Source of the DNA: an uncultured Spirochaetales bacterium
GTDB lineage: Bacteria; Spirochaetota; Spirochaetia; Sphaerochaetales; Sphaerochaetaceae
Direction: 5' to 3'
Assembly (NCBI GenBank): GCA_949293335.1
Contig: CASFDA010000013.1
Location: 186,001-250,000 of the forward strand
DNA: 64,000 bases
Every line of letters starts with the position of its first letter. The first letter of the stretch is position 1. A model generated the notes under the pieces. It saw only the letters and a program-made list of their open reading frames with translations, made no database searches and had not been told where the DNA came from. The translations under genes were made by a program, and so were the position numbers. Of the stretch, positions 40,466 through 52,658 are shown one piece after another.

Positions 40466-41542
40466 ATGCAAGACTATCGTGGAGTAAGAATTGAGTTTCA
40501 CATTTTACAATCATTTCCTGTCACTTGTCTCAATAGAGATGATGTTGGCTCTCCAAAAACAGCTGTTGTTGGTGGCGTCGAGAGAGGAAGAGTGAGCAGT
40601 CAGTGCTGGAAGAGGCAGGTACGTTTGGCCTTAAGAGATCTTGATGTGCATATTGCTGTCCGGACAAGAAAGATTGCAGATATGATTGAAGAACGGTGCT
40701 GTGGAGTGTGCTCTGAAGAAAAGAAAGAATATATTGCTCGTATGGCTTCTGCTATTCAAAAAAGCAAAGATACACTTTTCTTTATTTCTGAGAACGAATT
40801 AAAGACTCTTGCCGAATATGCTGATGGTGTAGTTGATTATCAGACAGAGATCAAGAAGAAAACGCTTGATAAGGATCTTGAAAAAGCGATGCCAAAACTG
40901 CTAAAGGAATGTGGAATCAAAGGTTTGACCGATCTTGATGGTCTTGATATAGCTTTGTTTGGGAGAATGGTGGCAAATGCTACAGAGCTGAATGTTACAG
41001 CGGCATCTTCCTTCTCTCATGCTATCACGACACATAGGATTTCCTCTGCTGTTGATTATTTTACGGCTGTTGATGACTATATTTCTGAGTCGACTGAAAC
41101 TGGGGCAGGTCACATTGGTGCGAATGAATTCAGTTCTGGTACATATTACAGGTATATCAGTCTTGACCTAGGTATATTGGCGAATAATCTCCATGGTACG
41201 GAAGATCTGACTAAGGCTGTTGATATTTTCACAAGAGCACTTTTCATTGCGGTTCCTGCAGCGAAACAGACTACATTCACGGGATATTGTCCTTGGGATT
41301 ATGCGCATATTCTCATCAGAAAAGGTCAGCCTTTGTCAATTTCGTTTGACAAGCCTGTGCAGTCTAAAGGTGAAGGGTATCTCGAACCAAGCAGGATTGC
41401 TATGGAAAATGCAATTCTAAGAAATGAGAAATTGTTTGGTTCGATGTATGGGTTGATTGCTGAGTTTAAGTATGGAGATGTCGAAGAATTTGGCATTGAT
41501 CAGCTTTGCAAATCAATCTGTGATGTGATTGGACGTTCCTGA
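40466..41542 (+). CDS. cas7e: Cascade backbone subunit Cas7e (Cse4/CasC)
   Basis: Forms the helical filament along the crRNA; 358 aa. RIEFHILQSFPVTCLNRDD, the SPKTAVVGGVERGRVSSQ region followed by CWKRQVR, and GANEFSSGTYYRYISLDL are typical of the I-E Cas7. Starts 5 bases after the cas6e stop. Full length. Confidence 0.94.
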   Translation: MQDYRGVRIEFHILQSFPVTCLNRDDVGSPKTAVVGGVERGRVSSQCWKRQVRLALRDLDVHIAVRTRKIADMIEERCCGVCSEEKKEYIARMASAIQKSKDTLFFISENELKTLAEYADGVVDYQTEIKKKTLDKDLEKAMPKLLKECGIKGLTDLDGLDIALFGRMVANATELNVTAASSFSHAITTHRISSAVDYFTAVDDYISESTETGAGHIGANEFSSGTYYRYISLDLGILANNLHGTEDLTKAVDIFTRALFIAVPAAKQTTFTGYCPWDYAHILIRKGQPLSISFDKPVQSKGEGYLEPSRIAMENAILRNEKLFGSMYGLIAEFKYGDVEEFGIDQLCKSICDVIGRS

Positions 41543-41561
41543 TATAGAAGGAGTATTGTGC

Positions 41562-42239
41562 ATGTATATCGTCTTGTGGTTGGAAGGCCCCTTGCAGGCT
41601 TGGGGGCATGACTCAAAGTTTGGAGTACGCGAGACATTGCCTTTTCCGACAAAGTCTGGAGTTCTTGGAATGATACTGGCGGCACTTGGAAAGGGAGGAC
41701 CTCAACGTGATTTGCTTGGGCGTTTGTCGCCACTTCCTCAACAGGTCATTTCCTATGGTTCAAACATTCAGATGACGGACTATCAAGTGATAGGAAATGG
41801 ATATTCATCGAAGGGATGGAATTCACTTCTTATACCGCGTAAACGTGATGGTAGTTTTTCTGTTGGAGGCGGTGCAAAGATTTTATATAAACAGTATTTG
41901 CAAGATGCTCGGTTTGCAGTTATCATAACTGTTCCTTGCGATCTGTGTACAGAGATTGCTGATGCTTTGCATATGCCAGTATGGCCTTTGTGCTTGGGTA
42001 GGAAGAATTGTGTACCGTCAAGGCCAGTGTTTGCTGGAATATGTGAAAGAGAATGCGATGTCGATATCGTGCTCAAACCTATTGTAGGGAATCTGAAAAT
42101 CCAGTTTCGTGTGATCGAGGGCAATTATCCTGAAATGGGGGAGGTCCTGATTCTTAATGATGTTCCTATCTGCTTTGGAGACCATAAGGAATATGAATCA
42201 CGATATGTGACAGTGATAAAGGAGTTTCCCGACGAGTGA
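41562..42239 (+). CDS. cas5e: Cascade subunit Cas5e (CasD)
   Basis: Binds the 5' handle of the crRNA; 225 aa. LWLEGPLQAWGHDSKFGVRE and PTKSGVLGMILAALG are the Cas5e signature, and FGDHKEYESRYVT its C-terminal segment. ATG 41562 is 8 bases after GAAGGAG. The final codons CCC-GAC-GAG-TGA overlap the expected cas1 start: the C of GAC falls where an ATG would need T. Confidence 0.93.
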   Translation: MYIVLWLEGPLQAWGHDSKFGVRETLPFPTKSGVLGMILAALGKGGPQRDLLGRLSPLPQQVISYGSNIQMTDYQVIGNGYSSKGWNSLLIPRKRDGSFSVGGGAKILYKQYLQDARFAVIITVPCDLCTEIADALHMPVWPLCLGRKNCVPSRPVFAGICERECDVDIVLKPIVGNLKIQFRVIEGNYPEMGEVLILNDVPICFGDHKEYESRYVTVIKEFPDE

Positions 42240-43077
42240 CCGCCTCTTAATTAAAATCACGCATGATAATCTTCCTCAAATCAAGGATAGATATCCTTTT
42301 CTATATCTGGAACGTGGACGAGTAGAAATTGATGACAGTTCAGTGAAATGGATTGATGCTGGAGGCTTCGTTGTTCGTTTGCCTATTGCAACAATCTCCA
42401 CCTTGCTTCTTGGCCCTGGTACTAGTATTACTCATGAAGCTGTCAAAGTACTATCCTCTGCAAATACCACAGTATGTTGGGTTGGAGAGGATTCCTTATT
42501 GTTCTATGCAATCAGTCAGAGTCCGACATCAGATACTAGAAAAATGCGCAGACAAATAGAGCTGGCGACAAATCCATCTCAGAGGTTAGTTGTGGCAAGA
42601 AGGCTTTTTGCACAACGATTTCCTGATGAGAATATTGAATCATTGTCGATAAGCGAACTCATGGGAAAGGAGGGGCTGAGAGTACGTGAATCGTATGAGG
42701 CTTATGCGAAAGAATATGGAGTTGGTTGGGTTGGTCGTCGATTTGTTCCTGGACAATTTCATATGAGTGATACAACTAACAAAATTCTGACTGCTGCTAA
42801 TGCGGCTTTATACTCGCTTGTATTGTCTGCTATCATTTCTACAGGATTGTCTCCTCATGTTGGTTTTATCCATACAGGAAGTCCTCTTCCATTTGTCTAT
42901 GATATTTCTGATCTGTATAAAGACAAGCTTTGTGTATCGTTCGCTTTTCGAATGACTGCTGAACTCGGATGTACATATGACAGAAAGAAGTTATTGAATC
43001 GATTCCGTGAATGTGTTTCAGAGTTTTGTCTTATGGAAAGATTGCCGAATGATTTGAGTCGAATTCTTGGAGAGTGA
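42232..43077 (+). CDS. cas1: CRISPR integrase Cas1 (type I-E) with ACG in place of the start codon
   Basis: Spacer-integration enzyme, 281 aa if read from 42232. From there the frame reads (M)SDRLLIKITHDNLPQI, the conserved I-E Cas1 N terminus, followed by LLGPGTSITHEAVK and HVGFIHTGSPLPFVYD, the usual active-site region. AAAGGAG lies 7 bases before the ACG, the right distance. No ATG, GTG or TTG occurs in frame until GTG 42343, which would remove 37 residues of the N-terminal domain. Either ACG initiates weakly or Cas1 is not made properly. The rest of the gene is intact. Confidence 0.88.
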   Translation, partial: TSDRLLIKITHDNLPQIKDRYPFLYLERGRVEIDDSSVKWIDAGGFVVRLPIATISTLLLGPGTSITHEAVKVLSSANTTVCWVGEDSLLFYAISQSPTSDTRKMRRQIELATNPSQRLVVARRLFAQRFPDENIESLSISELMGKEGLRVRESYEAYAKEYGVGWVGRRFVPGQFHMSDTTNKILTAANAALYSLVLSAIISTGLSPHVGFIHTGSPLPFVYDISDLYKDKLCVSFAFRMTAELGCTYDRKKLLNRFRECVSEFCLMERLPNDLSRILGE

Positions 43078-43083
43078 TTTAAG

Positions 43084-43371
43084 ATGATTGTTGTTATGGC
43101 AGATGATATTCCTCCTGCAGTTAGAGGGAGAATGAAGCTTTGGTTCATAGAAATTAGACCAAATGTTTTCGTTTCTGGCGTAAAGGATACTGTAGCTAAA
43201 AGTGTTGTAGAATATCTGCTCAAAAGTGCTCGGGATAGTTCGAGCATGGTAATTATAGAGAGTATACGGAAGGCACCATACTACAAGATCTCGAAACTTG
43301 GATATGGACTGGATAATATACGAGCTATTAATGGGCTTCCACTGATTTTTGACAAGATTAGCGAGGTTTAG
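43084..43371 (+). CDS. cas2: Cas2 (type I-E)
   Basis: Partner of Cas1 in spacer acquisition, 95 aa, of the I-E (CasF/YgbF) kind: MIVVMADDIPPAVRGRMKLW followed by FIEIRPNVFV. It starts 6 bases after cas1. The C-terminal extension beyond residue 75 is typical of Cas2e. The CRISPR leader begins inside or right after this gene. Confidence 0.92.
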   Translation: MIVVMADDIPPAVRGRMKLWFIEIRPNVFVSGVKDTVAKSVVEYLLKSARDSSSMVIIESIRKAPYYKISKLGYGLDNIRAINGLPLIFDKISEV

Positions 43372-43377
43372 TACTAC
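43349..43377 (+). promoter_or_regulatory. possible CRISPR leader promoter
   Basis: TTGACA (43349-43354, inside cas2) with TACTAC (43372-43377) at 17 bases; alternative -10 elements follow in the run TACTATATATGG. Only 48 bases separate the cas2 stop from the first repeat, so the leader is short. Confidence 0.45.
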
Positions 43378-43419
43378 TATATATGGTGTTACTAAGATAA
43401 AATACACCTATATGTCGCT

Positions 43420-44058
43420 GTTTGCTCCACGCATGTGGAGATGTTTCCATCTAGTAATCCTCCGACTAACTAAATTGTAAGTTTGCTCCACGCATGTGGA
43501 GATGTTTCTATGAGATATCAGCGCGAACTTCAGGAGCGTATGTTTGCTCCACGCATGTGGAGATGTTTCCGAAGCGAGTGAATGAAGTTTTTGCGACGCA
43601 ACGTTTGCTCCACGCATGTGGAGATGTTTCTAAGATATACATCACTTGTTTAACGGAAGGAGCGTTTGCTCCACGCATGTGGAGATGTTTCTATTTGATT
43701 TTCAAGAATAAGAAGCTCCCTTTAGGTTTGCTCCACGCATGTGGAGATGTTTCTTATGTTGCTGAGATTGGTAGAGATTTTTCTACGTTTGCTCCACGCA
43801 TGTGGAGATGTTTCTTACGGTTCTTCTCGTGGTGGTATAAGGCTTTAGTTTGCTCCACGCATGTGGAGATGTTTCCGAGATTGAGGCAGAACTTGCTGGT
43901 GTTGTTTGGTTTGCTCCACGCATGTGGAGATGTTTCTGATGCATCTGCTAAGCGTCAGTATCTGATGTTGTTTGCTCCACGCATGTGGAGATGTTTCTGA
44001 CAAGTAGAAGGAGCGAGGGCCTTCCAGTTTGTTTGCTCCACGCATGTGGAGATATTGT
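43420..44058 (+). CRISPR. type I-E CRISPR array, 11 repeats and 10 spacers
   Basis: Repeats of 28 bases start at 43420, 43481, 43542, 43603, 43664, 43726, 43787, 43848, 43909, 43970 and 44031. Each begins GTTTGCTCCACGCATGTGG and ends GAGATGTTTC; the arms CTCCAC/GTGGAG flank a GCAT loop, the hairpin cut by Cas6e. Spacers are 33 bases except the fifth (43692-43725, 34 bases). The last repeat ends GATATTGT instead of GATGTTTC, marking it as the leader-distal end, so the leader is on the cas2 side. No spacer visibly matches other parts of this window. Confidence 0.98.
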
Positions 44059-44393: not shown

Positions 44394-45422
44394 TTACGTC
44401 GAAGACCTTGCCTTATATTCAGGCTGGAAGATTGTCTGTATAGCTTCTCGGTTCTTGTTCTGTATTATCGACAGCATATGCTGAATTGCACATGTTCCAA
44501 GTGTATATCGTGAACAATGTATCGTTGACAGTGGCGGTGTGAGATATGCAGCCATCTCCAGGTCATCAAATCCAATTATCTTGACCTGTTTTGGTATATT
44601 AAGGCCGTGTCTTGTAAGTGAGTTTATTACTCCGATTGCAAAGTAATCATTTGCAACCATGAGACCAAATGGGGGAGAAGCAATTTTATAGACTTCCTCT
44701 GTGATGCGACAAGCATTTTCCAATGATGTAGTATTCCAGAACACACGATCCGGATTAAATGGTATTGATCTCTCTTCAAGTGCTTGTCTGTATCCACAAA
44801 GTCTGATGTGTTCCTTTATTCCTGCTACTGTCTTGAGATTATCAGAACCAAGTAAGATGTATATATTCTCACCACATATATCTATCAGTTTTGATGTTGC
44901 TAGTTTCTGGCCTTCATAATCATCTGTAATGACATAATTGTCATCGGTTTTTCTTATTTTTCCTGTCTTTGTGTCCCTGTATGGATAACGCGACATAAAG
45001 ACGACCGGAACAAGTACTTTCTTGTAGCTGTCCATCGATACAGGAACAGATAGAATGCCGTCAACAGGAATTGATAGGAGCTTCTTGATTGCTGCTTTTT
45101 CATATTCAGGGTCATCTTTTGTCGATATGAAAATAGGGGTATAGTCAGTGTCTTGGAGTGCTTTAGAGATTCCTGTGAGAACCTGATTATATGAAAAGTC
45201 ATTATTTGGAATTATCACACCAATTATCCGTGATTTTCCAAGGCGGAGGCTACGTGCAGAAAAGTTCGGGTGATAATTGAGTTCCCTTGCAATCGCCATG
45301 ATCCTCTCTTGCGTGGCTGCAGGTATTTCACTACTTCCATTGAGTGTTTTTGAAACGGCAGATACTGATACGCCCGCTTTGTTTGCAATGTCACTAAGAC
45401 GAACTGTTTTTTCTCTTTTCAT
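44394..45422 (-). CDS. LacI-family transcriptional regulator
   Basis: 342 aa. The N-terminal helix-turn-helix RLSDIANKAGVSVSAVSKTL and hinge helix (FSARSLRLGKS) bind DNA; residues 60-330 form the sugar-binding sensor with IIGVIIPNNDFSYNQ and KIIGFDDLEMAAYLTPPLST. It is divergent from the transketolase-TRAP operon. An imperfect CTAAAACGTTATAG lies in its own leader and a perfect palindrome in front of the operon, so it probably represses both until the substrate or its metabolite appears. Confidence 0.92.
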   Translation of the reverse strand: MKREKTVRLSDIANKAGVSVSAVSKTLNGSSEIPAATQERIMAIARELNYHPNFSARSLRLGKSRIIGVIIPNNDFSYNQVLTGISKALQDTDYTPIFISTKDDPEYEKAAIKKLLSIPVDGILSVPVSMDSYKKVLVPVVFMSRYPYRDTKTGKIRKTDDNYVITDDYEGQKLATSKLIDICGENIYILLGSDNLKTVAGIKEHIRLCGYRQALEERSIPFNPDRVFWNTTSLENACRITEEVYKIASPPFGLMVANDYFAIGVINSLTRHGLNIPKQVKIIGFDDLEMAAYLTPPLSTIHCSRYTLGTCAIQHMLSIIQNKNREAIQTIFQPEYKARSST

Positions 45423-45431
45423 ACAATTTCT

Positions 45432-45445
45432 CTAAAACGTTATAG
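45432..45445. promoter_or_regulatory. candidate autoregulatory LacI-type operator
   Basis: CTAAAACGTTATAG is symmetric at 12 of 14 positions around a central CG and lies 10 bases upstream of the regulator's start codon. It shares the AACGTT core with the operator at 45676-45693. Confidence 0.6.
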
Positions 45446-45632
45446 TTAAACTCTAATTTAATTATAAAAGCATTTTTCTAATGTAACAACTATAAGAGGA
45501 TTTAATTAAGTTAAATTTCAAATAATTTTATTTTTGCATAAATTGCTTTTATATATGATGTTATTAAAAACTTTTTTCCTACAAGTATTTTCGTTATGAA
45601 TAGACGTTAATACAGCAGGAGTTTGAAAAGAT

Positions 45633-45661
45633 TTGACAAGATGAAAAACCCATGTGATGAT
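45633..45661 (+). promoter_or_regulatory. promoter of the transketolase-TRAP operon
   Basis: TTGACA (45633-45638) with GATGAT (45656-45661) at 17 bases. Transcription would start near 45668, just upstream of the operator. Confidence 0.5.
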
Positions 45662-45675
45662 TTTAATAACAAAAT

Positions 45676-45693
45676 TACTACAACGTTGTAGTA
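45676..45693. promoter_or_regulatory. LacI-family operator, perfect palindrome
   Basis: TACTACAACGTTGTAGTA is a perfect 18-base palindrome with the central CG typical of LacI-family sites. It sits between the predicted transcription start and the ribosome site of the first structural gene, where a bound repressor would block elongation. Confidence 0.85.
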
Positions 45694-45708
45694 GGGAGGT
45701 GATCAGTA

Positions 45709-46530
45709 ATGATGCTTCAGGAAAAGGCCGACGAATTACGTCTGGAAACCTTCAAGGCCATAAATAGTGCTGGCGGAGGACACTTCGGGGGATCGTTGTC
45801 TGTAATTGAGATACTGACCGTTCTTTTATATGGAATCATGAACTATTCGCCAATGAATATGAATGATCCGGGCCGTGACAGGCTTGTACTTTCAAAGGGC
45901 CATGCAGGGCCTGCTCTTTATGTGATGCTTGCTGATCTCGGGTTCTTTGAAAAGGAAAGGCTCCGTGAGCTTGACTGCGATGGAGGAAGGCTTCCAAAGC
46001 ATATTGACAGGTTGAAAGTTCCTGGTGTTGAGTTTTCGACTGGGCCATTGGGACAAGGATTTTCGGCAGCGGGCGGAATGGCTCTTGCCCTCAAGCATTT
46101 GGGATCTTGTGCAAATGTCTATGCCGTCCTAGGAGATGGAGAATGCGATGAAGGCCAGGTGTGGGAGGCTGCAATGGCCGCTTCTCATTATTCACTCGAA
46201 AACCTGATAGCTGTTGTTGATGTCAATCATTGTCAGGTCGATGGAATGACTAATGATGTCATGGATCTAGGCGATCTGCAATTGAAATGGAAATCTTTTG
46301 GCTGGAACGTATGTTCCTGCGATGGACATGATACAGAAAAGCTATCATCAGCTATTTCTGGTTTCCTGAAGAATAAAAATGGTAAGCCTTCTGTTGTCAT
46401 CGCTGAAACGATCAAGGGTAGGGGTGTCCGTTTCATGGAAGGAAATTACAAATGGCACAGTGGCAAACTGAATGAATCGCAGTATGAGGAAGGTCTGTCG
46501 GATCTTCAGAAGGGGAAAAAGAATGACTGA
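45709..46530 (+). CDS. transketolase, N-terminal (TPP-binding) subunit
   Basis: First half of a split transketolase, 273 aa. GGHFGGSLSVIEILTVLLY is the usual N-terminal stretch. LSKGHAGPALY and TGPLGQGFSAAGGMALA line the cofactor pocket. LGDGECDEGQVWEAAMAASH through VVDVNH is the thiamine pyrophosphate motif. GGGAGG precedes the ATG by about 9 bases (ATG 45712 is also possible). Pairs with the next gene; split forms are common in anaerobes and in specialised sugar or sulfo-sugar pathways. Confidence 0.92.
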   Translation: MMLQEKADELRLETFKAINSAGGGHFGGSLSVIEILTVLLYGIMNYSPMNMNDPGRDRLVLSKGHAGPALYVMLADLGFFEKERLRELDCDGGRLPKHIDRLKVPGVEFSTGPLGQGFSAAGGMALALKHLGSCANVYAVLGDGECDEGQVWEAAMAASHYSLENLIAVVDVNHCQVDGMTNDVMDLGDLQLKWKSFGWNVCSCDGHDTEKLSSAISGFLKNKNGKPSVVIAETIKGRGVRFMEGNYKWHSGKLNESQYEEGLSDLQKGKKND

Positions 46531-47458
46531 AACAAGAGATACGAATGAAACATATGGAATGACATTGCTTTCCCTTGCAAAAAAACATCCAAATCTTGTC
46601 GTCCTCGAGGCAGATCTGGGTAAAGCATCCGGCAGCAATGTTTTCAAAGAAAAATATCCAAATCGGTATTTCAATTTCGGAGTTGCGGAGCAGAACATGA
46701 TTGGCTATGCATCCGGTATGGCCGCAACAGGGCTCATTCCATTTGCCTCTACCTTTGCAAGTTTCATGTCTCAGCGTGCGCTTGATCAGGTTGTCAATTC
46801 TGTATGTTACAACGATGAGAACGTGAAACTGATCGGAACTTACGCGGGCATTACAAGCGAGAAGAACGGAGGTACGCACATATCTGTGCTCGATATAGCG
46901 GCAATGAGGGCAATTCCGAGGATGAAAGTTTTTGACGCAGGGGATGCTATTGAACTAGAACAGATTCTTGCCTATGCCGCAGATTGCATCGGACCTGTAT
47001 ATATAAGGACAAATAAAGGCAAATTTCCTTTGTTCCATTCTGCTGACTATCAGTTCAGATTCAATAAGGCAGAGATACTTTCAGAAGGGAAAGACGCAGG
47101 CCTGATAACCACAGGACTTACAACTTATCAGGGTATTGTCGCAGTCAATCAGCTTAGAAAAGAAGGGATCAATGTCATGCACCTGCATATGCCGACTATA
47201 AAGCCTATAGACAAAGAAGCAATAGCAATGTGCATGGAGAGTACTGGCTGGATAGTCACTGCAGAGAATCACTCAGTGATTGGTGGATTGGGAATGGCCG
47301 TATGCGCTGTTACATCAGAAACACATCCTGGAAAAGTTACACGATTGGGCTTCCAGGATCATTTCGGAGAGACTGCATCAAGAGACTACATGATGCATAA
47401 ATATGGTATTGACGCAGAGGGAATCGCTGATGCTATTCGCTCGGGCCTCAATGAATAA
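46523..47458 (+). CDS. transketolase, C-terminal (pyrimidine-binding) subunit
   Basis: Second half of the split transketolase, 311 aa. VLEADLGKASGSNVF, FNFGVAEQNMIGYASGMA with the glutamate that activates thiamine, and TYAGITSEKNGGTHIS are family motifs; the C-terminal domain has TAENHSVIGGLG. ATG 46523 overlaps the previous stop by 8 bases and follows GAAGGGG. Together the two subunits transfer a C2 ketol unit between sugars or sugar-like substrates. Confidence 0.92.
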   Translation: MTETRDTNETYGMTLLSLAKKHPNLVVLEADLGKASGSNVFKEKYPNRYFNFGVAEQNMIGYASGMAATGLIPFASTFASFMSQRALDQVVNSVCYNDENVKLIGTYAGITSEKNGGTHISVLDIAAMRAIPRMKVFDAGDAIELEQILAYAADCIGPVYIRTNKGKFPLFHSADYQFRFNKAEILSEGKDAGLITTGLTTYQGIVAVNQLRKEGINVMHLHMPTIKPIDKEAIAMCMESTGWIVTAENHSVIGGLGMAVCAVTSETHPGKVTRLGFQDHFGETASRDYMMHKYGIDAEGIADAIRSGLNE

Positions 47459-47471
47459 AAAGGAGGATATA

Positions 47472-48470
47472 ATGTTCAAGAAGGTTTTACTCATTTCAGT
47501 ACTTGCATCTATTTGTGTGCTGTCTGTGTTTGCAGGGGGAAACACAGATGATCAGGAGGTCTACACATTCAGATTTGCAACGAATCAGCCGGCATCGCAC
47601 GTTGTAGGGCCTGCATATCAGGGGCTTGTCGATGAACTCAATGAAAGGGGTGGTGGAAGGATAAAGGCAACTGCTTATTTTTCTGAACAGCTTGGAAATG
47701 AAAAGGAAATGGTCGACATGATTGCTAATGATATAAATGATATCATCGGATCTCCTGGACCTTCTGCTCTGGCTGTTTATTTCCCGACGCTTGGGTTGTT
47801 TGATGCACCATACATCTTCAGGAGTCCAGAACATGCTTTAGCCTTTGCTAATGGACCGGCATCGGATGAAATGTGGGACAAAATGGCAGAAGAAACGAAT
47901 ATCAGAGTTCTCGGAACATATTATTTTGGCACAAGGCATCTTACGTGCAACAACATTGATGTAATGACTCCTGAAGATCTCAAAGGTTTCAAACTCAGGG
48001 TAATCGATTCTCCTATTTCAATTGCGACAGGAAAAGCCCTTGGCGCAAATCCGACACCACTTGCATATGGGGAGCTTTATCTAGGTCTGCAGCAAGGTGT
48101 TGTCGATGGACAGGAGAATCCTCTCGCAAATATTATTGCCATGAAATTTTATGAAGTTCAGAACAGACTTATCCTTACAGGGCATGTAACTGCAGTTGTC
48201 TGTTTTGCAATGCCTGAATCAAAATGGCAGAGCCTGCCAGATGATATTAAGCAGATAGTGCAGACAGCAGTGGATAATGCAGTTGTAAATGCATCAAAGG
48301 CGATTAGCGATAGTGAAGAGGAGATGATGCGTGAACTGCAAAATGAAGGGATGAAAATACTAACTCCTGATGTTGAATCCTTCAGAACGAATGCCCAAAG
48401 CGTGATAGATGAGTTCAGTCCACAGTGGATGGATGGAATATACGATGTGATCCAGAGTGTTCAGGAGTAA
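47472..48470 (+). CDS. dctP: TRAP transporter substrate-binding protein DctP
   Basis: Periplasmic binding protein of 332 aa. The N-terminal KKVLLISVLASICVLSVFAG is a signal peptide, probably cut after VFA. The mature part has the DctP patterns VYTFRFATNQPASH and MTPEDLKGFKLRVIDSP, whose arginine usually grips a substrate carboxylate, and QQGVVDGQENP. AAGGAGG precedes ATG 47472. It lies between the transketolase and permease genes. Ligand unknown, likely an acidic molecule. Confidence 0.93.
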   Translation: MFKKVLLISVLASICVLSVFAGGNTDDQEVYTFRFATNQPASHVVGPAYQGLVDELNERGGGRIKATAYFSEQLGNEKEMVDMIANDINDIIGSPGPSALAVYFPTLGLFDAPYIFRSPEHALAFANGPASDEMWDKMAEETNIRVLGTYYFGTRHLTCNNIDVMTPEDLKGFKLRVIDSPISIATGKALGANPTPLAYGELYLGLQQGVVDGQENPLANIIAMKFYEVQNRLILTGHVTAVVCFAMPESKWQSLPDDIKQIVQTAVDNAVVNASKAISDSEEEMMRELQNEGMKILTPDVESFRTNAQSVIDEFSPQWMDGIYDVIQSVQE

Positions 48471-48479
48471 TTGAAAAAT

Positions 48480-48510
48480 GAGAAGTTCAGATTTTACATC
48501 TGGGCTTCTC
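48480..48510 (+). other. hairpin between dctP and dctQ
   Basis: GAGAAG/CTTCTC and CAGAT/ATCTG with two G-U pairs between form a 13-bp stem on a TTTAC loop. No T-tract follows. Such hairpins often stabilise the binding-protein message so that DctP outnumbers the permease. Confidence 0.65.
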
Positions 48511-48528
48511 CCAAAGGACGACTAATAA

Positions 48529-49014
48529 ATGACAAAATTCAAAAGATTAATTGATGTACTCTGTCGAATTGAGGAGTACATAGCAATAGTTTGCCTGATT
48601 GTCCTTATTGTCATTACGACACTTGGCATAATCTGCAGGTATTTTCTCAATCAGCCTCTAGTGTGGACAGAGGAGCTCGCCCGTTTCGTGTTCATCTGGC
48701 TCATCTCTGTATGTGTCGGATATTGCGTAACGAAAAAGGATCACGTGAAAGTCGAAATGTTTGTGAATATGATGAGTGCAAAGGCTCACCGGATAGTGGA
48801 CATTGTTCTTTCATTCATGACGTTCGGTTTTTTCCTGTATCTTCTTCCGTATTCGTTCAAATTCATGCTGGTACAGGACAAGATAAAGTCAACGGCTCTA
48901 AGTCTTCCGTTTTCTTATGTCTACAGTGGCGTATTCATCGGATCTCTTCTGATCTTGATTCACCTTTCTTACAATATCGCTTGTCTCCTGACAGGCAAGG
49001 AGAATGAAAAATGA
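48529..49014 (+). CDS. dctQ: TRAP transporter small permease DctQ
   Basis: 161-residue membrane protein with four helices. VWTEELARFVFIWLISVCVG is the characteristic DctQ stretch. AAGGA lies about 10 bases upstream of the ATG. Its stop overlaps the dctM start (ATGA). Confidence 0.92.
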   Translation: MTKFKRLIDVLCRIEEYIAIVCLIVLIVITTLGIICRYFLNQPLVWTEELARFVFIWLISVCVGYCVTKKDHVKVEMFVNMMSAKAHRIVDIVLSFMTFGFFLYLLPYSFKFMLVQDKIKSTALSLPFSYVYSGVFIGSLLILIHLSYNIACLLTGKENEK

Positions 49015-50285
49015 ACATGGGACTTTTCTTTTTAATCTTCCTTGCAGTACTTCTCATGAATGGTTCAGTCGCATTCTCTATGCTCTTCTGTTCTGGTATC
49101 TACATGCTTGCTGAAGGTCTGTCTTTCATGCTTGTTGCGCAGCGTCTGGTTGCAGGAGCAAATCAGTTTGTCCTTCTCGCAATTCCATTTTTCATTCTGG
49201 CAAGCAACATAATGAATTATGGTGGAGTTACAGACAGGATCTTCAATTTTGCGAACAAGGCGGTAGGACATATACCTGGTGGACTCGGACATGCGAATAT
49301 ACTTGCTTCTGTGATATTTGCAGGTATGTCGGGTTCTGCCGTTGCTGACTGCGCCGGCCTTGGAAAGATTGAGATCAAGGCTATGAAGGACTCAGGCTAT
49401 GATGAAGGTTTTGCAGCGGCCATTACTGGTGCATCCTCAATCATAGGCCCGATTATTCCACCAAGTATTCCTTGTGTGCTTTATGGAGTTGCCGCTTCAG
49501 TTTCGATCGGTCAGCTTTTTCTTGGTGGAGCTATTCCTGGAGTCATTATGGCTGTCTGTCTGGCTGTCATGGTAACGATAGAGGCAGTCAGGAATGGATA
49601 TCCACGGGAAAAGTGGGAGGGCTTCAGGGTTCTTGGAAGGACTCTCGGAAAATCTTTCTTGTCCCTTCTGACTCCTGTGATCATACTTTTTGGCACATTT
49701 ACTGGAATTGTCACCCCTACAGAATCTGCTGTGATTGCAATCCTTTATTCATTGGCACTTGCTTTTCTGTATAAGCAAATGACTGTCAGACAATTCAAGG
49801 AAGTGCTGATTGAGACTGTAAGGACAACCGTACCGACAATGTCGATTCTATGTGCTGCACAGGTATTTGGATGGATCATGGCCAACGAACAGATTCCGCA
49901 GCTTGTACTTGCATTCTTCGAAACCTTCATTCATTCAAAATGGGCGGCCTTGATTGTTGTCAATATATTTCTTCTGATAGTTGGGTGTTTCATGGAAGCT
50001 GGAGCTGCTCTGATTATTCTTGTTCCTGTCCTCCTTCCGATCATGACATCATTTGGTGTAGATCCTGTACATTTTGGAATCATCATGGTCCTCAATCTCA
50101 TGATTGGTCTGATAACACCTCCAGTAGGAATATGTCTATACATTCTTCAGTCAATCACGACTCTCTCTTTTTCCGAGATAGTGAAGAGGATAGCACCTTA
50201 TCTTTTGTCTCTGATTATTGCTTTGATGATTGTCTCTTTTGTACCAGCAACAGTCATGTGGCTGCCAACTATGGTGTTTGGCTGA
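49011..50285 (+). CDS. dctM: TRAP transporter large permease DctM
   Basis: Ion-coupled permease of 424 aa with about twelve hydrophobic segments. Family stretches include AIPFFILASNIMNYGG, FAGMSGSAVADCAGLGKIE and IIGPIIPPSIPCVLYG, and NLMIGLITPPVGICLYI near the C terminus. With DctP and DctQ it completes the importer. Start overlaps dctQ by 4 bases. Confidence 0.95.
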   Translation: MNMGLFFLIFLAVLLMNGSVAFSMLFCSGIYMLAEGLSFMLVAQRLVAGANQFVLLAIPFFILASNIMNYGGVTDRIFNFANKAVGHIPGGLGHANILASVIFAGMSGSAVADCAGLGKIEIKAMKDSGYDEGFAAAITGASSIIGPIIPPSIPCVLYGVAASVSIGQLFLGGAIPGVIMAVCLAVMVTIEAVRNGYPREKWEGFRVLGRTLGKSFLSLLTPVIILFGTFTGIVTPTESAVIAILYSLALAFLYKQMTVRQFKEVLIETVRTTVPTMSILCAAQVFGWIMANEQIPQLVLAFFETFIHSKWAALIVVNIFLLIVGCFMEAGAALIILVPVLLPIMTSFGVDPVHFGIIMVLNLMIGLITPPVGICLYILQSITTLSFSEIVKRIAPYLLSLIIALMIVSFVPATVMWLPTMVFG

Positions 50286-50298
50286 TAAGGAGGAAATC

Positions 50299-51168
50299 AT
50301 GTCAGATTTTTTGCGCAGGTCATTGCTATATGTGCCAGCCAGTTCTGAAAAGATGCTCAACAAGGCAAGAACGATTTCTTCTGATGCAGTGATTTTGGAT
50401 CTTGAAGATTCCGTGAGTCCTGAGGAGAAAGAGAAAGCCAGGAAAAACGTAGTTGAGTATCTGCATGAACGACAGTATGAGAAAGAGGTCATTGTTCGCA
50501 TAAATGCACTGAATACTATCTGGGGATTGAAAGACATGATGGAGATCATTCCTTTGTCTCCCGACGGAATCATCTTGCCAAAAGCAAATGAAAAATCTGT
50601 TGCTGCTTATGAAATGATCTTTTTCTCCCTCTCCGGATCAGAACGGGAAAAGCACACAAGCCTCATTCCACTTCTCGAGACAGCAGAAGGAATATCTGAT
50701 GCCCGTCAGATTTTGAGTTCTTCTGGACTTATAGATGCAATACAACTTGGTGCGGAAGATCTTGCGAGGGATCTTTCAGTAGAAAGAACGAGAGAGGGAC
50801 TGGAGATTGAATTTGCCAGACAATCTCTTGTCTATATAGCCAAAGGACTTAAGCTGGATGTTCTCGATACTCCGTATACAGCGATACATGACATTGAAGG
50901 GCTAAGGGCCGATTGTATGAAGGCAAAGGCGATGGGCTTTACCGGCAAGGTCTGCATACATCCTTCACATGTCGATGTGATAAATGAAATTTTCTCGCCG
51001 TCAGAGGCTGAAATTTCAGAGGCGGGAAAAATTATAAGTGCTTATGAGGATGCCAGGAAGGATGGGAAAGGTGCAGTTTCCTACAACGGGAAGATGATCG
51101 ATCTGCCAATCCTTCAGCGAGCAGAGAATCTTATAGCACGAAACAACTTAATTCAAAATAGGAGGTAA
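50299..51168 (+). CDS. HpcH/HpaI-type aldolase, CitE-like
   Basis: 289-residue TIM-barrel enzyme of the citrate lyase beta/malyl-CoA lyase family. RSLLYVPASSEKMLNKA, ILDLEDSVSPEEKEKAR, LIPLLETAEGI and AIQLGAEDLARDL are the conserved strands with the Mg2+-binding Glu and Asp. KVCIHPSHVDVINE is the usual C-terminal region. Members cleave or form 3-hydroxyacyl-CoA or hydrolyse malyl-CoA. AGGAGG precedes ATG 50299. No citrate lyase alpha or gamma genes accompany it, so a citrate role is unlikely. Confidence 0.85.
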   Translation: MSDFLRRSLLYVPASSEKMLNKARTISSDAVILDLEDSVSPEEKEKARKNVVEYLHERQYEKEVIVRINALNTIWGLKDMMEIIPLSPDGIILPKANEKSVAAYEMIFFSLSGSEREKHTSLIPLLETAEGISDARQILSSSGLIDAIQLGAEDLARDLSVERTREGLEIEFARQSLVYIAKGLKLDVLDTPYTAIHDIEGLRADCMKAKAMGFTGKVCIHPSHVDVINEIFSPSEAEISEAGKIISAYEDARKDGKGAVSYNGKMIDLPILQRAENLIARNNLIQNRR

Positions 51169-51172
51169 TAAA

Positions 51173-52603
51173 ATGACAGAAGTAAAGGAAATCAGTCAGG
51201 AGACTAATGAATATATTGCATCTTTGGTTGAAAGAGCAAAAAGAGCGATGGCAAAAATAGCTGATTTAGGGCAGGAAGATGTACGCTGCATTTCAAAGGC
51301 CATCGGCTGGCTTGCTATCAACAAGGCTGAGGAATGGGCAGAAATAAATTTCAATGAGACAAAGATGGGGCGCCTGGAAAGCAAAGTTCAGAGAACAAAG
51401 GCCAGGGCACGTGGAATAACAAGAGACCACAATCTCGCAAAGACAGTGGGAATTGTCGATGTTGATGAAGAAAAGCAACTTGTCAAGATCGCCAAACCTG
51501 TGGGTGTCGTTGCATCCTTGGTTCCCGTTACTGTGCCAATGGGGGTTGTTTTTATCGGCGCGATGAATGCGATCATGGGAAGGAATGCAACGATATTCTC
51601 CCCTCATCCGAGAGCAAAGCACTGTACGTGGCAATGTGTTGAGGATATCAGGAGACTGTTGAAAAACATGGGTTATCCTGAAGATCTTGTTATATGCATA
51701 GAGGAACCGTCTTTGGAAAAGACCACAGCATTGATGCGTCAGGCAGATCTGATTGTTGCCACTGGTGGGGCCCCGATGGTCAAGGCCGCCTATTCATCCG
51801 GAACTCCTGCTTTTGGTGTTGGAGCTGGCAATGTCGTTGTTGTCGTTGACGAGTCAGCAGACTTGAAGGATGCTGCTGAGAAAATCATGGTTGCACAGTT
51901 GAATGACTACGCAATCGGATGTTCTACAGAAAATGCGATGGTGATTCAGGATAGTGTATATGATGCAATGCTGAAAGCTTGTGTCGAGACAGGCGCTTAC
52001 ATATGTAATCAGGAGGAGAAGAAACTTCTTGAAAAGTTCTTGTGGACTGGACCGAAGAAGTTGAATCCGAATGCAATCTGCCTTCCTGCTCCTGAAATGG
52101 CACGCCGATCAGGTTTTGTCATTCCAGAGGACAGTAAATGGCTAATAGTGGAAGAAACGGGGTATGGACCAGAGTATCCGTTCTCTGGAGAGAAGCTTTC
52201 TGTGGTTGTGACAGCATACAGATATAATTCTTTCGATGATGCTATTTCTCTTGTCAATGGTATACAGGATTATAGTGGTGCAGGCCATTCATGCGGCATC
52301 CACAGCAAGAATGACAATCACATTTTGAAGTATGCACTCAATACCCACACAAGTAGGGTTGCTGTCAATATGACGGTGGGACTTTCCAATGCTGGAAATT
52401 GGAATAATGGCATGCCTTTTACAATTAACTTGGGCTGTGGCACTTGGGGCGGAAACATAACTTCCGAGAACATAACTTGGAAAAACTATATCAATACAAC
52501 CTGGGTAGCAAGAGAGATAAAGAACTTCAAAGTACCTACAGATGAGGAACTGTTCTCTGATATTCCCTCTCGCAAAAAGTACTTTGTTGGATTGCTGGAT
52601 TGA
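51173..52603 (+). CDS. CoA-acylating aldehyde dehydrogenase, sulfoacetaldehyde dehydrogenase-like
   Basis: 476 aa. It belongs to the AdhE/EutE-type acylating branch: GVVASLVPVTVPMGVVF, TGGAPMVKAAYSSGTPAFGVGAGN (seen as two adjacent blocks around residues 198-220) and the catalytic cysteine in NDYAIGCSTEN (Cys250). The terminal WKNYINTTWVAREI resembles AdhE and sulfoacetaldehyde dehydrogenase (SauS). It would oxidise an aldehyde to an acyl-CoA with NAD+. Immediately follows the CitE-like gene. Substrate not determined. Confidence 0.85.
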   Translation: MTEVKEISQETNEYIASLVERAKRAMAKIADLGQEDVRCISKAIGWLAINKAEEWAEINFNETKMGRLESKVQRTKARARGITRDHNLAKTVGIVDVDEEKQLVKIAKPVGVVASLVPVTVPMGVVFIGAMNAIMGRNATIFSPHPRAKHCTWQCVEDIRRLLKNMGYPEDLVICIEEPSLEKTTALMRQADLIVATGGAPMVKAAYSSGTPAFGVGAGNVVVVVDESADLKDAAEKIMVAQLNDYAIGCSTENAMVIQDSVYDAMLKACVETGAYICNQEEKKLLEKFLWTGPKKLNPNAICLPAPEMARRSGFVIPEDSKWLIVEETGYGPEYPFSGEKLSVVVTAYRYNSFDDAISLVNGIQDYSGAGHSCGIHSKNDNHILKYALNTHTSRVAVNMTVGLSNAGNWNNGMPFTINLGCGTWGGNITSENITWKNYINTTWVAREIKNFKVPTDEELFSDIPSRKKYFVGLLD

Positions 52604-52627: not shown

Positions 52628-52658
52628 GATATGCCTGGAACGTTTTTCTAGGCATATC
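52628..52658 (+). terminator. terminator of the transketolase-TRAP operon
   Basis: GATATGCCT (52628-52636) pairs perfectly with AGGCATATC (52650-52658); a weak T-rich TTCTCTT follows. The remaining sequence to 52937 is AT-rich and gene-free, and should hold the promoter of the next operon. Confidence 0.7.

Follow-up and report, generated by a model that had tools for sequence, protein, structure and literature searches.

A 64-kb stretch of DNA from an uncultured Spirochaetales bacterium (assembly GCA_949293335.1, contig CASFDA010000013.1, positions 186,001 to 250,000; here the window) carries seven tightly packed genes for a split transketolase (TK), a tripartite ATP-independent periplasmic (TRAP) importer, a CitE-like lyase, and a coenzyme A (CoA)-acylating aldehyde dehydrogenase (ALDH). 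With moderate confidence, sequence comparisons lead us to read them as an inducible operon that degrades an acidic ketose, for which a 5-ketohexonate is the likeliest candidate. This reading is favored because TKs with this type of substrate pocket adjoin IolN, an enzyme that makes a 5-ketohexonate, because positions 358 and 461 are changed as in an engineered Escherichia coli TktA, and because the nearest solved relative of the ALDH is a succinate-semialdehyde dehydrogenase.

The individual reactions, their order, and the substrate are what we infer from these genes. The candidate substrate is HOCH2-CO-CHOH-CHX-CHOH-COO-, in which X is OH or, in the 3-deoxy form, H. It would be taken up by the TRAP importer, and TK would transfer its two-carbon HOCH2-CO end. 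The acceptor would be a sugar phosphate, presumably glyceraldehyde-3-phosphate, which would become xylulose-5-phosphate. The C4 remainder would be 2-hydroxy-4-oxobutanoate (tartaric or malic semialdehyde), which the SucD/SauS-like ALDH would oxidize to tartryl- or malyl-CoA with conservation of energy. Cleavage of this ester by the CitE-like lyase would yield glycolyl-CoA or acetyl-CoA plus glyoxylate, and glyoxylate would be converted to glycolate, probably by an HprA-type enzyme encoded elsewhere.

Operon structure and regulation

The features of the cassette are as follows.

44394-45422, minus strand: LacI/RbsR-family repressor, divergent from the operon (Pfam LacI and Peripla_BP_3)
45432-45445: imperfect palindrome CTAAAACGTTATAG resembling the operator (two mismatches to its core), near the lacI start
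45633-45661, plus strand: promoter-like pair TTGACA-17-GATGAT, its second hexamer preceded by TG (consensus scan)
45676-45693, no strand: LacI operator, perfect palindrome TACTACAACGTTGTAGTA, the sole exact core in the window
45709-46530, plus strand: split TK, N-terminal subunit (TKN), binding thiamine diphosphate (ThDP) (PF00456, 151.8 bits)
46523-47458, plus strand: split TK, pyrimidine and C-terminal subunit (TKC) (PF02779 and PF02780)
47472-48470, plus strand: DctP, TRAP solute-binding protein (PF03480)
48480-48510, plus strand: RNA hairpin between dctP and dctQ (minimum free energy -18 kcal/mol, z -3.4)
48529-49014, plus strand: DctQ, small TRAP permease (PF04290)
49011-50285, plus strand: DctM, large TRAP permease (PF06808; TIGR00786 over cut-off)
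50299-51168, plus strand: CitE-like (HpcH/HpaI family) CoA-ester C-C lyase (PF03328)
51173-52603, plus strand: CoA-acylating semialdehyde dehydrogenase (the ALDH), SauS/SucD-like, with Cys250 (SauS model, 458.7 bits)
52628-52658, plus strand: terminator-like hairpin after the ALDH gene

All eight open reading frames are full-length and have the positions and identities given in a preliminary description of this DNA. The best NCBIfam match of the repressor is RbsR, under the cut-off. Gaps between the operon genes are, in order, -8, 13, 58, -4, 13, and 4 nt, the first being the 8-nt overlap of the TKC start (ATG at 46523) with the TKN stop. This tight spacing, together with Shine-Dalgarno-like stretches before most of the starts, makes co-transcription of the seven genes very likely. 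The largest gap, between dctP and dctQ, contains the stable hairpin, which probably leads to differential expression. The operator lies directly downstream of TTGACA-17-GATGAT; promoter-like matches overall occur at chance frequency, and this one is placed just before the operator. A palindrome of at least 16 bp arose in ~2.5% of shuffles of the intergenic region.

Among sampled members of the genus, the cassette was found in just one further genome, G001, at a second spirochaete locus, L031. The TK, TRAP, and ALDH proteins of L031 are 70–93% identical to those of the window, CitE just 59%, and a LacI ortholog in the same place 73%. The operator 16-mer is identical and again upstream of TKN, TTGACA is kept, and a site similar to CTAAAACGTTATAG is present; this second site may serve LacI autoregulation. 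DNA similarity between the two loci reaches no further than lacI on one side and the ALDH gene on the other, and the flanks diverge. Because similarity is limited to this interval, the cassette behaves as self-contained and would have been transferred as a whole. The preliminary description had placed all seven genes under a single LacI operator, a proposal that the perfect palindrome and its conservation in L031 uphold. Gene packing, the operator, and this conservation likewise bear out the idea of one regulated catabolic module, and no description of it was found in the open-access literature, in line with the suggestion that it is undescribed, although a gap in those papers does not prove novelty.

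Transketolase pocket and linkage to IolN

The TK is of the split type, with ThDP-binding, pyrimidine, and C domains distributed over two subunits, and TKC matches a solved split TK (6yaj, 261 bits). ThDP-site and catalytic residues are retained (H26, H66, H100, H261, E411, and H473 in the E. coli alignment). The substrate pocket reads N358/Y461/N469/K520 (E. coli TktA numbering), so that the phosphate-site residues R358/H461/D469 of ordinary transketolases are replaced by N/Y/N and the housekeeping pattern is missing. Among ~50 compared TK C-subunits, 31 have R/H/D/R at positions 358, 461, 469, and 520; the E. coli enzyme and the Carboxydothermus split TK of solved structure belong to this group. 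N/Y/N/K was seen in the window, L031, and a clostridial locus (L032) alone, and the closest variant, K/Y/N/K, only in three other spirochaete TKs (L143, L144, and L145).

IolN directly adjoins all three K/Y/N/K TKs (283–309 bits; cut-off, 245) and the L032 TK (283–322 bits with L032 included). These are the only four of 43 fetched TK loci with IolN within ~1.5 kb of the TK; the window and L031, also among the 43, have a TRAP importer in its place. Four of the six TKs with Y461/N469/K520, and no other scanned TK, thus adjoin IolN. IolG is also beside the TK in L144 (451.7 bits; cut-off, 355), where an IolO-like protein is encoded as well; the IolN and IolG names are those of the NCBIfam models. 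IolN is the hydrolase of the Thermotoga-type inositol route and opens 3-dehydro-scyllo-inosose to a 5-ketohexonate (5-keto-L-gluconate), which bears the HOCH2-CO-CHOH end required by transketolase. The three K/Y/N/K loci (L143:5557-10700, L144:57-8319, and L145:1103-7112) are spirochaete inositol clusters, with two TKs in L143 and L145, in which the Thermotoga-type pathway is apparently rerouted via TK. Where that route (IolG, IolM, IolN, and IolO) continues through IolO to tagaturonate and UxaB, TK would take over in the window's pathway, and the acid would probably be imported.

The same C-C cut has been engineered. E. coli TktA R358I/H461S/R520Q converts 5-ketogluconate to tartaric semialdehyde, and a route from 5-ketogluconate to tartrate via TK and succinate-semialdehyde dehydrogenase was proposed (PMC12016104). 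Positions 358 and 461 are naturally changed in the window TK. Whereas the engineered route ends in tartrate, a natural split enzyme in a dedicated operon would here deliver its product to a CoA ester. The apulose-4-phosphate transketolase AptAB is likewise a split TK dedicated to sugar catabolism (~43% identity) but, unlike the window TK, keeps R358/H461/D469, in line with its phosphorylated donor.

Aldehyde dehydrogenase, CitE-like lyase, and substrate uptake

The ALDH has an intact catalytic Cys250, in GCSTEN, and matches the CoA-acylating aldehyde dehydrogenase superfamily over its full length. Its closest NCBIfam model is SauS (NF047625), for which 458.7 bits fall below the equivalog cut-off of 600, and its nearest Protein Data Bank entry is SucD 8cei (301 bits over residues 14-461). 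By sequence, its best known relatives are enzymes for short acidic aldehydes, succinate semialdehyde (SucD) and sulfoacetaldehyde (SauS). In the lyase, the metal and carboxylate residues and the C-terminal Asp (R67/E127/D154/D268) are invariant in 12 sequences, as in the CitE/HpcH-HpaI lyase superfamily. It scores alike against the citrate lyase beta (citE) and RipC models (207.6 and 188.7 bits, both short of the equivalog cut-offs of 443.4 and 375) and against CLYBL and malyl-CoA lyase structures; its sequence does not tell lyases of the malyl, tartryl, and citramalyl types apart. Unlike a citrate lyase (CitDEF) cluster, the operon has neither citD nor citF. Gene content and intact residues support the earlier proposal of a module that transfers a C2 unit, oxidizes an aldehyde in a CoA-dependent step, and breaks a C-C bond.

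Comparison of homologous clusters, which had been suggested as a check, brought out a conserved ALDH-CitE pair along with the TK-IolN neighbors. Scanning 84,980 species genomes yielded 23 loci with ALDH relatives. Every relative at least 60% identical is directly preceded by a gene for a CitE relative; the hosts are spirochaetes, Clostridia, alkaliphilic and other Bacilli, Christensenella, Anaerotignum, Alphaproteobacteria, and one deltaproteobacterium. The CitE-linked ALDHs, including that of the window, form one clade (13 sequences, support 1.0). A chain from aldehyde to acyl-CoA to C-C cleavage would explain the pairing. The clade is rare, occurring in 2/392, 1/248, 1/16, and 1/41 genomes in random sampling of host orders, query hosts included, and neither ALDH, CitE, nor TK was found at ≥60% identity in plasmid records. 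The comparative statistics rest on ~12 loci, metagenome-assembled genomes are incomplete, and some genomes are the same in two collections (L031/G001, L038/G034, L032/G101, and L051/G109).

The sister of the 13-member clade is the SauS-like ALDH of L058, whose neighbors are a CoA transferase, a protein resembling HMG-CoA lyase (256.5 bits; cut-off, 246), and a split TK. This ALDH lineage is thus linked more than once to a lyase that cleaves C-C bonds of CoA esters. In the L058 module (L058:8869-15875), which also encodes a transporter and LacI, that lyase is of another kind than CitE. Another locus, L148:1369-6135, combines a split TK (R/Y/A/R pocket) and a SauS-like ALDH with a methylmalonyl-CoA-decarboxylase-alpha-like protein and possibly converts malonate semialdehyde to acetyl-CoA.

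The importer is a DctPQM set of solute-binding protein and small and large permeases. DctP is 32% identical to 4pf6 and ~30% to SiaP, and its structure model (predicted local distance difference test score, 85.9) matches the fold of TRAP solute-binding proteins, including sugar-acid binders. It keeps the equivalents of SiaP R127, R147, and N187, which form the carboxylate clamp. Uptake of an acidic compound had been anticipated, and the retained clamp supports it.

Alternative front ends and related clusters

In Bacilli and Anaerotignum, the gene order is cdaR-like, (glycerate kinase), dctPQM, zinc-dependent alcohol dehydrogenase (Zn-ADH), citE, aldh, (hprA), with no TK. The alphaproteobacterial CitE-ALDH locus also has an ADH and TRAP genes and no TK, whereas the window and L031 have TK and no ADH. 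TK and Zn-ADH would thus be alternatives ahead of the CitE-ALDH pair, either of which would make the aldehyde. Since DctP proteins of the two versions are just 21–28% identical, different compounds are probably imported and converge on the same aldehyde. Loci L033, L039, L040, and L041 (~2–12.5 kb), from alkaliphilic and other Bacilli, have cdaR-like, glycerate kinase, TRAP, Zn-ADH, citE, aldh, and hprA genes, and would offer a culturable ADH version of this back end; Neobacillus niacini and Alkalicoccus saliphilus are among the hosts of that version. In the window's genus, L038:5243-12816 (G034) encodes TRAP proteins, an AroE-like dehydrogenase, CitE, ALDH, and a transaldolase-like protein, a putative further front end. 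Isosaccharinate was rejected as the Bacilli substrate; it is a misfit as a TK donor, and a search of the open-access literature gave no support.

In L032, a run of genes encodes an IolN-like hydrolase, TKN, TKC, an IolM-like ADH, a 3-hydroxyisobutyrate-type dehydrogenase, CitE, ALDH, and HprA. The last, a 2-hydroxyacid (glyoxylate/hydroxypyruvate) reductase, belongs to one family (52–76% identical) that adjoins CitE-ALDH in L032, L033, L037, and L039-L041. Quercitol would be a chemically neat source of a 3-deoxy acid in L032; nothing on it was found in the open-access literature. The L032 genome has two further clusters that would couple TK to makers of 5-ketohexonates. One (L098:1635-8792; G101:C1:565000-584500) encodes IolN, an IolO-like protein, tagaturonate epimerase UxaE (552 bits), TK, a type II GAPDH-like protein, and a PGK-like kinase, which suggests an acyl-phosphate route for the C4 acid-aldehyde. 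The other (L082:8604-16982; G101:C3:286000-304000) combines a TRAP importer and a D-mannonate oxidoreductase (363.5 bits; cut-off, 281) with two split TKs and a reductase of the HprA type; its predicted role is to degrade fructuronate by way of both TKs, with glyoxylate and glycolate as products.

These clusters point to a pathway family that would begin with TK cleavage of an acidic hexulose and pass the resulting C4 acid-aldehyde to one of several interchangeable modules: a second TK, GAPDH plus PGK, or ALDH plus CitE. We regard it as an evenly balanced proposition that a natural branch of this wider TK-initiated family exists in which a TK with an altered phosphate pocket removes a C2 unit from 5-ketohexonates that carry no phosphate, leaving tartaric or malic semialdehyde, which then passes through a CoA ester to the CitE products.

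Evaluation of the proposed pathway and its alternatives

Several points weigh against the 5-ketohexonate pathway. Without R358 and H461, a phosphorylated acceptor could also bind less well. IolN linkage favors a fully hydroxylated substrate and known CitE chemistry a 3-deoxy one: to our knowledge, characterized CitE-family enzymes release acetyl- or propionyl-CoA and not glycolyl-CoA, so a fully hydroxylated substrate would need new CitE chemistry, and the 3-deoxy substrate would be rarer. IolN is not over the cut-off in the genome of the window, G000 (best, 84.1 bits; cut-off, 245), so the pathway would have to rely on uptake of ketose acid that is already formed. HprA is not adjacent in the window and L031 operons, and the best HprA homolog in G000 (49% identical) is elsewhere in the genome. 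Glycerate kinase beside the Bacilli clusters would fit hydroxypyruvate as well as glyoxylate, and TK, ALDH, and CitE could act in a different order. For the glyoxylate itself, a glyoxylate carboligase (Gcl) route was rejected, as Gcl is absent from G000 and over the cut-off only in G103.

The strongest rival, though an unlikely one, is a hydroxypyruvate-consuming TK that acts last. The cell would import an alcohol acid, an ADH encoded outside the operon would turn it into the aldehyde, CitE would release hydroxypyruvate from a 2-hydroxymethyl-malyl-CoA-type ester, and TK would use the hydroxypyruvate as an irreversible ketol donor with release of CO2. Hydroxypyruvate is a classic TK donor, the HprA-type reductase and glycerate kinase beside CitE-ALDH in Bacilli and Christensenella fit it, and isosaccharinate-type acids would suit the alkaliphilic Bacilli hosts. 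However, TK and HprA occur together in L032, so TK is no replacement for HprA; the nearest TKs with the same pocket accompany IolN, not CitE; and no ADH is present in the window and L031 operons.

It is improbable, more so than a TK acting last, that the same back end serves a branched or deoxy ketose acid, with citramalyl-, citryl-, or beta-methylmalyl-CoA cleaved to acetyl- or propionyl-CoA plus pyruvate, oxaloacetate, or glyoxylate. The even CitE scores against citrate lyase beta, RipC, CLYBL, and malyl-CoA lyase would accommodate it, but we know of no natural ketose acid with such a skeleton, and the HprA neighbors indicate glyoxylate or hydroxypyruvate as the 2-oxoacid product. A branched sugar, one of the substrates first suggested, likewise found no pointer in its direction.

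A sulfo-TK-type route that starts from a sulfosugar or sulfonate and ends in sulfoacetyl-CoA is very improbable. Its appeal lies in SauS being the closest NCBIfam model of the ALDH and in the co-occurrence of TK and sulfoacetaldehyde dehydrogenase in sulfo-TK clusters (PMC9594981). The SauS cut-off is not reached, however (458.7 against 600), and spirochaete operons that do resemble sulfo-TK (L061 and L064) have a TK with R/D/N/R in place of the window's N/Y/N/K, ALDHs that fall outside the window's clade, and a SucCD-like ligase, an RpiB-like isomerase, and a DASS-type transporter, none of which is in the window operon. The isethionate- or sulfoacetate-forming step and the isomerases are missing from the cluster, which has TK, TRAP, CitE, and ALDH only, whereas L064 carries the ligase and RpiB-like genes, and a CitE lyase would have no role in such a pathway. 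The sulfonate suggested in the preliminary description is therefore not supported by TK pocket, ALDH clade, or gene content, while its view of a module related to but distinct from sulfo-TK is supported by residues, phylogeny, and gene content.

Least likely is that the genes have nothing to do with one another, an importer of C4-dicarboxylates and an enzyme resembling citrate lyase merely lying beside a housekeeping transketolase: each family is common individually, but the operon is tight and its one operator conserved in L031 despite divergent flanks, the TK pocket is not of the housekeeping kind, the ALDH-CitE linkage spans phyla, and the operon has no citD or citF and a lyase below the citE cut-off.

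Comparison with known pathways and implications

Set beside sulfo-TK, in which the split TK SqwGH cleaves a C6 acidic ketose and a SauS-like ALDH makes an energy-saving CoA ester, the proposed 5-ketohexonate pathway follows a similar logic. Sulfo-TK variants have a sulfoacetaldehyde dehydrogenase and a sulfoacetate-CoA ligase; the window operon, by contrast, is without the sulfoquinovose isomerase, RpiB-like isomerase, ligase, and exporter, and it would use one TK cut instead of two and cleave the CoA ester with CitE. The itaconate (RipC/Ccl) and malyl-CoA lyase pathways share CitE-type cleavage of a 3-hydroxyacyl-CoA, which they make by CoA transferase or ligase, whereas here an acylating aldehyde dehydrogenase would make it.

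If correct, the pathway would let gut bacteria ferment keto sugar acids, and acids derived from inositol, in a carbon-economical way, with all six carbons passing to C2 units or the pentose pool without KDG aldolase and energy conserved in the CoA ester. Transketolases, usually called housekeeping enzymes, would include substrate-specific catabolic clades recognizable by a four-residue pocket signature, which would become an annotation rule for many "transketolase family protein" pairs. The missing step from 5-ketogluconate to tartaric semialdehyde is debated for grape tartrate (PMC7970118) and would become testable with natural enzymes.

Neighboring CRISPR region

A CRISPR array at 41529-44056 has 11 repeats of ~28 nt (GTTTGCTCCACGCATGTGGAGATGTTTC) with a 61–62 nt period, the last copy being degenerate. 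It adjoins open reading frames resembling cas5, cas1, and cas2, probably of type I-E, and the region ends ~340 bp from the lacI stop.

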